DNA of 11,892 nucleotides from assembly GCA_902797705.1 (NCBI GenBank), contig CADBTX010000236.1, forward strand, positions 1 to 11,892. Reading direction: 5' to 3'. This DNA is from an uncultured Lachnospiraceae bacterium. Its GTDB lineage: Bacteria > Bacillota > Clostridia > Lachnospirales > Lachnospiraceae. Shown in pieces: positions 3,475 through 11,892 of this stretch; within the stretch, counting starts at the first letter, position 1, and each line of letters begins with the position of its first letter. The notes below the pieces were generated by a model. It saw nothing but the letters and a program-made list of their open reading frames with translations. It did no database searches and was not told the origin of the DNA. The position numbers were made by a program, and so were the translations under genes.

Positions 3475-3503
3475 TTGAATCTGCCCCGAACAAAGTTTAT
3501 AAT
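3475..3503 (+). promoter_or_regulatory. Sigma-A type promoter for the DUF1836 gene
   Basis: TTGAAT at 3475-3480 and a perfect TATAAT at 3498-3503 are separated by exactly 17 bases. Transcription should begin near 3510, giving a leader of about 34 bases before the ATG at 3544. Because the promoter lies upstream of that ATG, the longer open frame starting at 3475 cannot be the real gene start. The site also lies in the 5' flank of the divergent pcrA gene, so the two transcription units may interfere. Confidence 0.8.
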
Positions 3504-3543
3504 CTGTCTATGCTGCTTCTTTCTTAACTGCAGAGGTACTGAC

Positions 3544-4149
3544 ATGACTTTTGACCCCGAAAACCTTATAGAAAGCATAATCGAAAGTCTTGGACGGATC
3601 GAAACCATTGATGTTTCTGCCCTTCCCGACATAGGTCTGTACATGGATCAGGTCACGACTTTTATGGAAAAAAACATGGAGCACACCAAGAGGTACTCCA
3701 CCGATAAAGTCCTTACCAAGACCATGATCAATAATTATGCCAAAAACAAACTGCTTCCGCCTCCCGATAAGAAGAAGTACGATAAAGATCATCTTATCAT
3801 GCTGATCTTTATCTATTACTTTAAGAACATCCTGTCCATCAACGATATTGAAAAACTGATGGCTCCTCTGTCCGAAAAGTATTTCCACTCGGATTCCGAC
3901 TTTAACTTAAAGGATATCTATTCCTATGTCAGCGAAAGCTCCCTGAATCAGGTGGAGGAACTCCAAAAGTACGTGAAGCAGAAGTATTCCGAAAGCACAG
4001 AGATTGCCGGAAAAGCCGGAGAAAGCGGCATTTCGGAGGAAGACAGACGCTTTATAGAGATCTTCTCCTTCATCTGTTCCCTCTCCTTTGATGTCTACGT
4101 TAAACGGCTTATGATCGAGAAACTAATCGACCTCATGCATCCTCTCTAA
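3544..4149 (+). CDS. DUF1836 domain protein, putative DNA-binding regulator
   Basis: A 201-residue protein and the only plus-strand gene in the window. The ATG at 3544 is preferred over the earlier TTG (3475) because AGAGG sits 7 bases upstream and a consensus promoter occupies 3475-3503. The signature LTKTMINNYAKNKLLPPP (57-74), followed by a basic KKKY and the hydrophobic DHLIMLIFIYYFKNILSINDIEKLM, is the DUF1836 hallmark and resembles the helix-turn-helix region of MerR-like proteins. The C-terminal half is helical and acidic. From memory, the Bacillus subtilis DUF1836 protein YkrK regulates the protease gene htpX, so a transcriptional role is likely, but no target can be read here. Its final nine codons overlap the end of yerC on the other strand. 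No rho-independent terminator is visible past its stop, so its transcript may run into antisense yerC. Confidence 0.85.
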   Translation: MTFDPENLIESIIESLGRIETIDVSALPDIGLYMDQVTTFMEKNMEHTKRYSTDKVLTKTMINNYAKNKLLPPPDKKKYDKDHLIMLIFIYYFKNILSINDIEKLMAPLSEKYFHSDSDFNLKDIYSYVSESSLNQVEELQKYVKQKYSESTEIAGKAGESGISEEDRRFIEIFSFICSLSFDVYVKRLMIEKLIDLMHPL

Positions 4150-4416
4150 TACCAGATCGTAGCCGTCATTGCCGTAGTTAAGGGACCTGTTTACACGGCT
4201 GATGGTGGCTGTGGAAGCGCCGGTCTTTTTGGCGATCTCCTGATAGGTCTTCTTATCCTTCAGCATCCTTGCTACTTCAAAGCGCTGTGAAAGAGAAAGG
4301 ATCTCATTCACCGTAGCCAGATCCTCAAAAAAAGTATAGCACTCCTCTTTCGTCTCCAATGTAAGGATCGCGTCAAAAAGCGTATCCACCGCCTCGGTAT
4401 GTAACTTCGCGTTCAC
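4123..4416 (-). CDS. yerC: YerC/YecD family TrpR-related DNA-binding protein
   Basis: A 97-residue helical protein of the usual length for the YerC/YecD family, whose fold is that of the Trp repressor. The central LSLSQRFEVARMLKDKKTYQ region (about 39-58) and EIAKKTGASTATISRVNRSL (59-78) form the helix-turn-helix, with TATISRV as the recognition helix. The start is GTG at 4416-4414, backed by a strong GGAGGGG seven bases upstream that lies just after the aminopeptidase stop. The gap to that gene is 16 bases, so yerC is likely last in the LytM-aminopeptidase-yerC string. Its physiological target is not known to me. In Bacillus subtilis yerC also lies close to pcrA, and here pcrA is one gene away, so part of the neighbourhood may be conserved. 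The last 27 bases overlap the convergent DUF1836 gene. Confidence 0.9.
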   Translation of the reverse strand: MNAKLHTEAVDTLFDAILTLETKEECYTFFEDLATVNEILSLSQRFEVARMLKDKKTYQEIAKKTGASTATISRVNRSLNYGNDGYDLVLERMHEVD

Positions 4417-6714: not shown

Positions 6715-6826
6715 GTGGATTTTGTCAGTCTGCATCTTGTACGTGGATTTTGTCAGTCCGCATCCTGTACGTGGATTTTGTCAGTCCGCGTCCTGTACGT
6801 GGATTTTGTCAGTCCGCGTCCTCAAG
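6715..6826. repeat. Four tandem copies of a 28-bp repeat spanning the ANTAR gene 3' end
   Basis: Four direct copies lie head to tail with no spacers: 6715-6742, 6743-6770, 6771-6798 and 6799-6826. Each begins GTGGATTTTGTCAGTC on the plus strand. Copy 4 holds the last codons and stop of the ANTAR gene (Asp-Ala-Asp-stop), so each copy carries a GACTGA-like stop context on the minus strand. Copies 3 and 4 are identical over 24 bases, copy 2 differs from 3 at one base, and copy 1 has two further changes. This fits stepwise duplication of the gene end by replication slippage. The unit is not a multiple of 3 and forms no strong hairpin. Confidence 0.95.
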
Positions 6827-7384
6827 GATACGGCGGGCGGCAGAGCCTCTGGATATCCCATTATCCATTGCCATTTTTCCTATGAGCCTGTGGGCATCAT
6901 CCTCTGTCATGTGATCTCTTTCCACAAGCAAAAACTTGGCCTTGCTTACGAGCCTCATTTCCTCCAGCTTTTCCTCCAGCGCCCGGTTTTTCTTTTCCAG
7001 TTCGTGAATCCTGTTCTGGGAGGCGAGAAGGAACCTTACAGCACGGTCGAACCTGTGGCGCGGCAGGGGTTTCGGGAGCACAAGTATCCCGCGCTCCGTC
7101 ACCCTTTCAAGCACATTTTCATAGGAATCCTGCGGAGTGATGATCAGCACGGAAGCACTGCACTTCTGCACCGTATCCATGGCAAAGCCCTCGCCTGCTT
7201 CATCCGGAAGAGGTGAATTGATGATAACGATATCATAATACCTTTCAAGGATGCAGCGACGGCCAACAGCCGCACTTTTCCTGAGATCGATACTAAAACC
7301 CGAAAGGGATCTCTTCACGATCTGGTCAAACTGCGGCGATGCAGACACTATCAATATGGAATGAAATGTGTCATCCCTGGGCAT
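6809..7384 (-). CDS. ANTAR-domain RNA-binding response-regulator-like protein (NitR-like), pseudo-receiver
   Basis: A 191-residue protein with a receiver-like domain (about 8-110), a coiled-coil linker (about 118-138) and a C-terminal ANTAR domain (about 139-184: KAKFLLVERDHMTEDDAHRL, then the conserved KMAM and AARRIL). ANTAR proteins bind paired hairpins in nascent RNA and prevent termination. The receiver lacks the acidic pocket (ILIVSASP at 10-17 where ILIVDDD is usual) and the phospho-acceptor: the Asp is Asn56 in YDIVIINSPLPDEAG. Thr83 and Lys105 remain. It is therefore unlikely to be switched by a histidine kinase. The ATG at 7384 has AAGGA eight bases upstream and is 11 bases after the glutamine-synthetase-like gene. 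The arrangement resembles the glnA-nitR pair reported in Clostridium saccharobutylicum. The stop codon falls in the 28-bp repeat array. I found no ANTAR-type double hairpin target in the window. Confidence 0.88.
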   Translation of the reverse strand: MPRDDTFHSILIVSASPQFDQIVKRSLSGFSIDLRKSAAVGRRCILERYYDIVIINSPLPDEAGEGFAMDTVQKCSASVLIITPQDSYENVLERVTERGILVLPKPLPRHRFDRAVRFLLASQNRIHELEKKNRALEEKLEEMRLVSKAKFLLVERDHMTEDDAHRLIGKMAMDNGISRGSAARRILEDAD

Positions 7385-7395
7385 AGACTCTTTCC

Positions 7396-8571
7396 TTAAA
7401 CTCCTGTATAGACCTTAATGATGCCTTCGGGAACAATGCTCTTCACAAAGTCACTCTTTGCGGCGAGTCCCGCTGCCTCACGGCGTGAACCCGGAAGGAG
7501 CAGCGCTTCATTTGCCATTTCCTCCGGAAGTTCCGTCCTGTTTTTGATACCCTGAAGCCCGGCATGGATGAGCAGGGCATAAACCAGATAGGGATTTCCC
7601 GAAGCATCCGGGGATCTTAATTCCACCCTGGTCCTTCCCTTGTAGGTCTCTATATACATCATCTCCGACTCACCGGCGCTGGACCAGTTTACCTTATCGG
7701 GAGCCGTATTATTTCCAAGCCTTGCATAGGAGCCGTCCGTAGGATTCAGGAAGATGGTGATATCCCTGATCTTTTCTATTATGCCTGCGGCGGCGTATTT
7801 TATCACGTCTTCTCCCTTCTTACTGTCCGCATAGATCATGATATGGTAACCGTTTCCCGGCTGGTCCGGAAGGGGCATGGGAGAAAAATCCGCCGCCAGA
7901 CCGTAGATATCCGCGATGGTGCTTACGACCATCTTGAAGGTGGTCATCTGATCCGCAGCCTTTAAGGGACGGGCATAATGAAAGTCTATCTCATTCTGTC
8001 CGGGGCCTCTTTCATGATGTGACCTCTCGGGAATAAGCCCCATCCTCTCTATGGTAAGAGAGATCTCCCTCCTTACGTTCTCACACTTATCGAGAGGGGC
8101 GATATCCATGTACCCTGCCTTGTCATAGGGTATCCTGGTGGGGTTTCCGTCATCATCCTTCATAAAGAGATAGAACTCGGTCTCGGTTCCGAAGCGGAAT
8201 TCGATCCCCTCTTCTTCGGCATCCTTAACCGCCTTCCTTAAGATCGCTCTGGTATCGCTCTCATAAGTTCTGCCCTCGGGATCAAAGAGATCGCAGAACA
8301 TCCTTATGACCCTTCCGCTGTCAGGCCTCCAGGGCAGTATGGCCATGGTGTCCGGATCCGGTTTCAGATACAGGGAGGCGTAAGGACAGTCCTCAAAGCC
8401 CGGGATCACCTTCGGATTAATGGGTGCCCCGTCAGTGAAGGCCTTTTTTACTTCACCCGGCATGACTGAGATATTTTTCTGCACTCCGTAGGCGTCACGA
8501 AAGGCAAGACGTATAAATTTCACGTCTTCCTCTTCTATAAACTTCATTACTTCATCAACGGAATAATTCAT
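7396..8571 (-). CDS. Short, divergent glutamine-synthetase-family protein
   Basis: At 391 residues this is shorter than GSI-type glutamine synthetase (about 440-470). The beta-grasp domain (FIRLAFRDAYGVQKN) and catalytic domain are clear: FGTETEFYLF (Glu130, Glu132), SHHERGPGQNEIDFHYARPL (Glu187, Glu194), PGNGYHIMI (His243), NPTDGSYARL (Arg284) and RVELRSPDASGNPYL (Glu317, Arg319). By eye, three residues needed in enterobacterial GS are changed: Glu327 to Thr289 (NNTAP for GYEAP), Arg339 to Glu301 and Arg344 to Tyr306 (the NRSxxIRIP stretch is lost). About 11 residues before Arg284 and nearly 40 at the C-terminus are missing. It may have another substrate, or sense glutamine or ATP rather than make glutamine. 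The ATG at 8571 lies 3 bases after pyrG, with its AGGA inside the pyrG end, so translation is probably coupled. No symbol is given because glnA activity is doubtful. Confidence 0.85.
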   Translation of the reverse strand: MNYSVDEVMKFIEEEDVKFIRLAFRDAYGVQKNISVMPGEVKKAFTDGAPINPKVIPGFEDCPYASLYLKPDPDTMAILPWRPDSGRVIRMFCDLFDPEGRTYESDTRAILRKAVKDAEEEGIEFRFGTETEFYLFMKDDDGNPTRIPYDKAGYMDIAPLDKCENVRREISLTIERMGLIPERSHHERGPGQNEIDFHYARPLKAADQMTTFKMVVSTIADIYGLAADFSPMPLPDQPGNGYHIMIYADSKKGEDVIKYAAAGIIEKIRDITIFLNPTDGSYARLGNNTAPDKVNWSSAGESEMMYIETYKGRTRVELRSPDASGNPYLVYALLIHAGLQGIKNRTELPEEMANEALLLPGSRREAAGLAAKSDFVKSIVPEGIIKVYTGV

Positions 8572-8574
8572 CTC

Positions 8575-11419
<2,845 letters not shown>

Positions 11420-11421
11420 CT

Positions 11422-11892
11422 TTATTTCCTTCCTTTCCTTAGCTTATCCCAGTCTATTTCTCCCTCAAACACGGTTTCCGCGGGACCGGTCATATACACG
11501 TGGTTATCATCCTCATTCCACTCTATGTCCAGATCACCGCCCCGGAGCCGCACCCTGACACGCCTGTCAGTGTATTTATTTATGACGGAAGCCACCACGC
11601 TGGCGCAGGCCCCTGTGCCGCAGGCGAGAGTTTCCCCGCTGCCCCTTTCCCAGACACGCATCTTTATGGTATTTCTGTCGATCACTTTAATGAACTCTGT
11701 ATTTACTCCCTCCGGGAAAATAGAGAGATGCTCATATTCCGGGCCGGTCTTTTCCAGATCAAGACTGTAAGGGTCATCCACATATATGACCGCATGGGGA
11801 TTTCCCATGGATACCGAGGTTATACTGACGGTTTTTCCCTTTACATCCACAAGAGCGTCAATAAGATCTTCATCCGGGACCGGTTCTCCCAT
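11422..11892 (-). CDS. dapF: Diaminopimelate epimerase, C-terminal part (start outside the window)
   Basis: The last 156 codons of dapF; the frame stays open at the right edge. The enzyme converts LL- to meso-diaminopimelate. The MGEPVP at the edge fits the internal VDMGEP-like segment of the family, so the Met at the window end is not the start. Visible features are [43 protein letters not shown] with the second catalytic Cys, and [14 protein letters not shown]. The N-terminal half and its first catalytic Cys are not in view. The stop lies 2 bases before dapL. The Lys/Arg-rich tail (DKLRKGRK) overlaps the dapL ribosome binding site. Confidence 0.97.

Follow-up and report, generated by a model that had tools for sequence, protein, structure and literature searches.

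ANTAR proteins act on RNA targets whose hexaloops have A in the first and G in the fourth position (A1/G4), and the target hairpin competes with a terminator (PMC3369931; PMC3369936). A single hexaloop is the minimal ANTAR binding unit, and the eut leader needs both of its hexaloops (Walshe et al., PMC8934654). AmiR-type ANTAR proteins with a pseudo-receiver depend on a modulator protein for their action (PMC3369931). That ANTAR proteins control nitrogen genes, among them those for glutamine synthetase (GS) and GOGAT, is already known (PMC6316151; PMC3369931; PMC4676874): NitR of Clostridium saccharobutylicum induces GS/GOGAT genes under nitrogen limitation (PMC6316151), and an ANTAR gene lies in the GS-GOGAT cluster of C. 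thermocellum (PMC4676874). The GS of Bacillus subtilis reports the nitrogen state to TnrA (PMC6316151).

We analyzed a stretch of 11,892 nucleotides (the window) from a relative of the Lachnospiraceae of rumen and gut, in which the gene for a GS-like protein is followed by an ANTAR gene. NitR (Stutz 2007, via PMC6316151) is likewise an ANTAR antiterminator acting on nitrogen genes; the citing text of PMC6316151 contains no statement on GS as its sensor or on a dead GS, and here a GS-like protein is the candidate sensor. In AmiC-AmiR a pseudo-receiver ANTAR protein is gated by a ligand-binding partner (PMC3369931; PMC3369936), and here too a pseudo-receiver ANTAR gene adjoins that of a candidate modulator. 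The candidate partner in the window differs in having the GS fold, and the complex is a putative one. AmiC belongs to the periplasmic binding proteins. NasS-NasT offers a further likeness, a sensor-ANTAR complex that dissociates on signal (PMC3795266), but its sensor responds to nitrate/nitrite. In the GS-TnrA system of B. subtilis an active enzyme controls a DNA-binding protein (PMC6316151), whereas here a changed GS is encoded beside an RNA-binding protein. EutV leaders (PMC3369931; PMC8934654) share with the leaders described below an A1/G4 hexaloop whose hairpin overlaps the terminator with its 3' part; they have dual hexaloops and need the upstream hairpin P1 in vivo, whereas the present leaders have one hairpin just after the putative promoter, no visible P1 and loops that are mostly AAAGGC or AAGGGC. 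A literature search of titles and abstract openings, covering little of the subscription literature, found neither a dead GS as an ANTAR partner nor its repeated origin. Within the same scope no description of a one-hairpin leader was found, and the supplementary tables of Ramesh 2012 may contain some such leaders.

The GS-like gene and its ANTAR neighbor

The features of the locus, all on the minus strand, are as follows.

6809..7384, minus strand: 191-aa ANTAR RNA-binding regulator whose receiver is degenerate; its gene lies 11 nt past the end of the GS-like gene
7396..8571, minus strand: GS-like protein, a predicted pseudoenzyme, 391 aa (Pfam Gln-synt_N/C; active-site tables; AF model)
7654..7656, minus strand: codon for Tyr306, aligned with Arg344
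7669..7671, minus strand: codon for Glu301, aligned with Arg339
7705..7707, minus strand: codon for Thr289, aligned with Glu327
8416..8418, minus strand: codon for Asn52, aligned with Salmonella Asp50
8575..10176, minus strand: pyrG, a glutamine-using CTP synthase, 3 nt upstream of the GS-like gene (NCBIfam PRK05380, 827 bits)
10205..11419, minus strand: dapL, LL-diaminopimelate aminotransferase, in the same apparent operon (TIGR03542, 592 bits)
11422..11892, minus strand: 3' part of dapF, cut by the contig end (TIGR00652, 158 bits)

The ANTAR protein matched PF03861 with 51 bits (cut-off 27.3), and its gene was the sole ANTAR match in the host genome, which is 80% complete. In 78 of 80 loci an ANTAR gene follows the GS-like gene on the same strand; in the other two (L053 and L055) the contig ends there. 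The gap between the two reading frames had a median of 13 nt and was at most 322 nt. Many relatives have pyrG upstream of the GS-like gene, directly or across carA/carB-sized genes, whose identity was verified by Pfam in one relative (L015). Since the upstream neighbor varies, being pyrG or dapL in many loci, carAB in L015, gltBD in L005 (Pfam) and amtB-PII in L031, the GS-like and ANTAR genes are the constant unit.

The receiver of the window ANTAR protein has Asn56 in the phospho-Asp column and Ser-Ala at the expected place of the acidic pair. Among 79 ANTAR proteins of the window clade the phospho-Asp was missing in 67 and retained in 12 (N 59, D 12, S 4, and K, Q, C and F one each). It was also missing in 38 of 40 downstream partner genes of relatives, which were picked by position (37 of 39 once L161, which is probably no ANTAR gene, is left out; L135 is truncated). 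Because the loss extends to these partner genes, receiver degeneration seems to predate the dead GS. The RNA-contact residues known from EutV are partly conserved in the window protein: Lys149, Glu160 and Met172 are kept, Tyr164 is replaced by His, and Arg142, Arg168, Arg175 and Arg177 are not kept. His replaced the G4-stacking Tyr of EutV in 78 of the 79 window-clade proteins (the remaining one has a gap), and Arg175 and Arg177 were mostly lost across the same set.

Several further features were observed. A 28-bp tandem repeat (window 6715-6822; 3.9 copies, 96% matches) reaches the 3' end of the ANTAR gene, whose stop codon lies within it. A DUF1836 protein gene (window 3475-4149, plus strand) is convergent with one for a YerC/YecD TrpR-family regulator (4123-4416, minus strand), with an overlap of 27 bp. 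In L070 (7809-7896, plus strand) an Rfam GA-cis RNA (70.8 bits) lies between the ANTAR gene and the next gene; the literature search found no description of GA-cis.

Active-site changes and selection

The AF monomer model of the GS-like protein had a pLDDT of 91.5 and kept the GS fold, and one loop and the C-terminal tail of GS are missing. Retained are E130, E132, E187, E194, H243, E317, R284 and R319, which comprise metal ligands and glutamate-pocket arginines; the two arginines answer to Arg321 and Arg359 of GS. A sequence-only reading of this DNA had listed the five metal glutamates and His243 as retained, and the active-site tables agree. It had also proposed three replacements, Glu327 by Thr289, Arg339 by Glu301 and Arg344 by Tyr306, all of which recur in the tables; that list was incomplete, lacking Asn52 in place of Asp50 and the lost loop and tail. 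We take Asp50 and Glu327 to form the ammonium site of GS and Arg339 and Arg344 to contact phosphates. Both ammonium-site residues (N52, T289) and both phosphate arginines (E301, Y306) are thus altered, and the alignments placed no Glu or Arg from elsewhere in the protein at sites 327, 339 and 344. Lys352 was not used as a marker since it is absent from B. subtilis GS too. Pro occupies the place of Asn264, presumably a glutamate-site residue of GS, and Arg62, which we take to be the feedback residue of B. subtilis GS, has no conserved counterpart (GFVR is GFED here). With both of these gone, glutamine may not be the ligand of the GS-like protein.

Conservation was evaluated in 200 homologues, comprising the window, 80 loci (of 122) and 119 of 120 listed proteins (199 distinct strings); these are the nearest homologues only, the listed proteins being the best 120 of 7999 scored candidates. 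Nine residues (E131, Y179, H211, E212, E220, G265, H269, R321 and R359) were invariant in all 200, and E129 and E357 were conserved in 193 and 195. Position 50 was N in 172 and D in none, position 264 was P in 198, and position 344 was Y in 166 and R in none. No homologue had E at position 327 (T 99, S 38, L 18, M 13, N 11, others 21), and position 339 was E in 131, with R left in four (L043, L049, L052 and P0105). This combination of invariant and lost residues indicates constraint on the metal sites and on two substrate arginines but not on the ammonium and phosphate residues. The median dN/dS of the GS-like gene was 0.038, calculated from the 11 pairs with a usable synonymous distance among all pairs of 32 loci (pairs share members). 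A value near 0.04 reflects purifying selection and argues that the protein is functional; a vestigial pseudogene was ruled out on this basis.

A pure scaffold, which would titrate or cap another GS or stabilize the ANTAR protein and sense no small molecule, would fit changed catalytic residues in a retained fold and the lost C-terminal tail. However, nine metal- and substrate-site residues without exception in 200 homologues go beyond what a scaffold needs, and we regard this explanation as unlikely.

In a profile comparison the GS-like protein stayed below both cut-offs: it scored 255.9 bits against the GlnA equivalog model (NCBIfam TIGR00653; cut-off 429) and 140.9 bits against gamma-glutamylputrescine synthetase (NCBIfam NF045547; cut-off 650). 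The second score bears on whether the protein could be a gamma-glutamyl ligase that uses some other amine in place of ammonia and has no tie to the nitrogen regulator beyond co-transcription. Relatives whose ammonium site is altered are known: in PuuA, positions 50, 53 and 327 are P, V and Y. The retained metal sites, R321 and R359 would also suit such a ligase. PuuA, a glutamate-putrescine ligase, nevertheless retains S273, R339, R344 and R355, whereas the phosphate contacts R339 and R344 are changed here, which makes the GS-like protein unlike a ligase for a new amine. Moreover, a Pfam search of ten window genes recognized no amine pathway, and the constant partner is an RNA-binding regulator. 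An amine ligase is therefore quite unlikely.

A genome search for a second GS, as had been proposed earlier, found two GSIII genes in the host (PF12437 GSIII_N, 267 and 266 bits). The earlier doubt about canonical synthesis was borne out by the joint changes at the ammonium and phosphate sites, the family-wide pattern, the GlnA score below cut-off and the two GSIII genes. Judged from these data, the GS-like protein has very probably lost canonical glutamine synthesis, a conclusion firmer than the sensor function discussed below.

Leader RNAs, their targets and ANTAR genes

A descriptor with two hairpins (P1 and P2) gave one match only in the loci and was abandoned for a single-hairpin search. 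The single-hairpin descriptor gave 63 raw matches, some places being doubled through overlapping loci, compared with 34 in one shuffled set; many raw matches are thus chance, often within coding sequence. Among them were A1/G4 hexaloop hairpins before nitrogen genes. Twenty-nine leaders with A1 were chosen by eye, selected for pairing and loop motif, and aligned. The antiterminator helix had 95.2% of its cells paired and 34 double-change cells, compared with a mean of 9.6 after shuffling; for the overlapping terminator the values were 93.6% and 92 (25.9 after shuffling). The pairing percentages lean upwards since the instances were picked for pairing. The two folds of the leader RNAs both covary and exclude each other. 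Five leaders, including three from the host genome, folded into the terminator form far below shuffles (z of -4.2 to -8.2).

Of 57 leaders 56 were usable, with loops AAAGGC (32), AAGGGC (13) and seven others (11). The leaders have the A1/G4 hexaloop overlapping an intrinsic terminator, and the search had used a related motif. A promoter-like pair (8 of 12 matches) preceded 50 of the 56 leaders, a level that 55% of shuffles reach likewise. In 44 of these 50 the -10 element ends 13-17 nt ahead of the loop, from which spacing the RNA would start with the hairpin. An upstream A1/G4 hairpin P1 with a stem of at least 4 bp was found in none of the 56 leaders (3.75 expected in shuffles). Rfam at the gathering level gave nothing in a set of nine sources and only GA-cis in a set of 11; the leaders at these loci thus match no Rfam family at that threshold.

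A leader model (R1) was built from the leaders picked for pairing and loop motif, and its E-values are rough owing to a short calibration. It had no match within the window, where the operon start and any leader lie beyond the contig end; an R1 leader precedes dapF in four related genomes (L098 by Pfam; L099, L168 and L171 by the same N-terminus). In the host genome leaders precede a GSIII-gltB operon, amtB-PII and asnB, and a weak match (C202:19382-19450) with no long gene downstream was set aside. AmtB and PII are fused in one protein in L090:2280-4037 (minus strand; host contig C291) and L031:4011-5783 (plus strand). Tandem leader pairs precede a single gene in L077:524-672 (minus strand), L082:3760-3906 (minus strand) and L037:10186-10315 (plus strand); that gene is amtB-like by its N-terminus in L082 and probably likewise in L077. 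A double check on read-through is a possible function of such pairs.

Of 108 leader rows nine were dropped before classification: eight were copies on the reverse strand, and one was a weak second element in L111. The next gene after the remaining 99 matches, in which L173 counts twice (two leader elements, one gene), was GSIII in 20, AmtB in 17, AsnB in 12 (one assigned at 27% identity), PyrG and GltB in five each, and GS-ANTAR and CarA in two each. This nitrogen set accounts for 63 of the 99; another gene followed in 23 and none was found in 13. Pfam analysis of ten of the 23 identified DapF, two sodium:alanine symporters, glutamate dehydrogenase, NifH and an aminotransferase of class IV, and the less obvious targets PPDK_N, ATP-grasp, a leucine-rich-repeat protein and one without a family. 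The PPDK_N-domain gene lies after an R1 leader in L169, and a gene with a similar N-terminus does so in L179. Twenty further leaders, chosen from the best matches in other families of the order, preceded GSIII (6), GS (3), AmtB (1), GltB (1, at 31% identity), other genes (7, with three AsnA-like and one NifH-like by eye) and no gene found (2). Their loops were AAAGGC (13), AAGGGC (4), AATGGC (2) and GAAGGC (1), so that G stood at loop position 1 in 6 of 76 loops overall (5 of 56 and 1 of 20).

Leader and ANTAR gene were compared across genomes at an R1 threshold of E <= 1e-4. Among 61 relatives a leader was present in 32 of 42 genomes with an ANTAR gene and in 5 of 19 genomes that lacked one, these five being 61-88% complete; at 90% completeness or more the counts were 20 of 27 and 0 of 9. 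A second sample comprised 107 genomes of the order, requested at 90% completeness or more except for the host; here the counts were 43 of 72 and 0 of 35 (Fisher 8.7e-11, a p value that overstates independence because the genomes share ancestry). Genomes absent from the first sample gave 36 of 61 and 0 of 26. The 29 ANTAR-bearing genomes of the second sample with no leader at this threshold may have leaders that are weak or of another form, or ANTAR proteins of another sort.

The leaders might instead be recognized by some other factor whose occurrence merely coincides with that of ANTAR genes, as the partial conservation of the RNA contacts in the window clade and the absent P1 hairpin would allow. 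Against this, an A1/G4 hexaloop overlapping a terminator is the published ANTAR signature (PMC3369931), and in the order sample every one of the 43 genomes with a leader also contains an ANTAR gene. We give another factor a small chance and infer that the ANTAR protein is what binds the leaders.

Origin and proposed role

In 39 of the 42 ANTAR-bearing relatives a GS lies within 1.2 kb of the ANTAR gene; the exceptions are G045 and G011, and also G028, in which the contig ends, and second ANTAR genes in G049 and G056 stand apart. Most ANTAR-linked GS of relatives are full length, and at 14 checked sites some are intact, e.g., in G039, G040, G046, G014, G030, G009 and G036. Erosion in the others takes different forms: D50Y, E327M/C, R339E and R344V in G001 and G013; Y179I/M, R355A and R359G/S in six genomes; E327R in G059; E129N, R339G, R355G and E357I in G032; and R321G with a gap at E327 in G044. 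On a maximum-likelihood tree (53 rows) at least seven changes between intact and eroded states were required, in a count that treats mild changes at the 14 sites, such as E357D, as eroded; the tree is unrooted, has 13 of 50 inner branches weak and includes three long rows. On the aligned residues and this tree, erosion of ANTAR-linked GS arose several times, and the ancestor would have been an intact GSI, subject to the tree being unrooted.

The ANTAR-linked GS of L151, L152, L153, L155, L156 and L157 (G004, G006, G008, G016, G025 and G027) have lost Arg359 and Tyr179 and retain Arg344 and mostly Arg339, the reverse of the erosion in the window clade.

The intact forms bear on whether the window protein is still a working GS with an unusual active site, the ANTAR link meaning that glnA is merely antiterminated. 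In G040 (97% complete) and G046 (100%) the intact ANTAR-linked GS is the only GS found, and leaders precede GS-ANTAR genes in several genomes, both as this explanation would have it. The window clade, however, is without D50, E327 and R344 throughout and nearly so without R339, and the host has two GSIII genes; a working enzyme here is highly improbable.

The sequence-only reading had left a different ligase or a sensor as options. The comparison with PuuA makes the ligase less likely, and the sensor is favored by the ANTAR gene next door and the leaders before nitrogen genes. We consider it probable (roughly 0.6) that the GS-like protein is the sensor subunit of an ANTAR nitrogen-antitermination switch. 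A pseudo-receiver needs a partner that brings the signal, and GS is the only constant neighbor; kept metals and substrate arginines with changed ammonium and phosphate residues fit an enzyme-derived sensor; and, by analogy, B. subtilis GS already signals nitrogen to TnrA. On the other side, the GS-ANTAR pairing could reflect shared regulation only. The most serious points against the sensor function are the altered ANTAR RNA contacts (Tyr164 to His; Arg175 and Arg177 lost) and the absent P1. Also against it are the phospho-Asp retained in 12 of 79 window-clade ANTAR proteins, the lack of a leader in 29 of 72 ANTAR-bearing genomes, and the leaders in 5 of 19 genomes without an ANTAR gene in the first sample.

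The ancestral operon would have encoded a working GSI and an ANTAR protein, as in some related genomes today. In a GSIII-bearing lineage the GSI would have shed its ammonium- and phosphate-site residues and retained the metal sites and two glutamate-pocket arginines. The GS-like protein presumably binds the ANTAR protein physically; its oligomer would read glutamine or glutamate, the candidate ligands, and via the pseudo-receiver determine whether the ANTAR protein is free. Under nitrogen shortage the freed ANTAR protein would bind the leader RNA at its 5'-terminal AAAGGC-type hexaloop and hold the antiterminator hairpin against the overlapping terminator, and RNA polymerase would then enter GSIII-gltB, amtB, asnB and like genes. 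More broadly, and with somewhat less than an even chance of being right as a whole, GS may repeatedly have lost catalysis within this clostridial order and been retained as a dedicated sensor, gating a pseudo-receiver ANTAR protein that controls a nitrogen regulon via one-hairpin 5'-end leaders, the intact GSI-ANTAR pairs being bifunctional enzyme-sensors and the source of the dead forms.

These results point to the neighboring GS as the nitrogen sensor for ANTAR antiterminators of the NitR kind. The natural GS variants may separate sensing from catalysis, and the defined leader RNA and its list of targets in rumen and gut bacteria make the idea directly testable.
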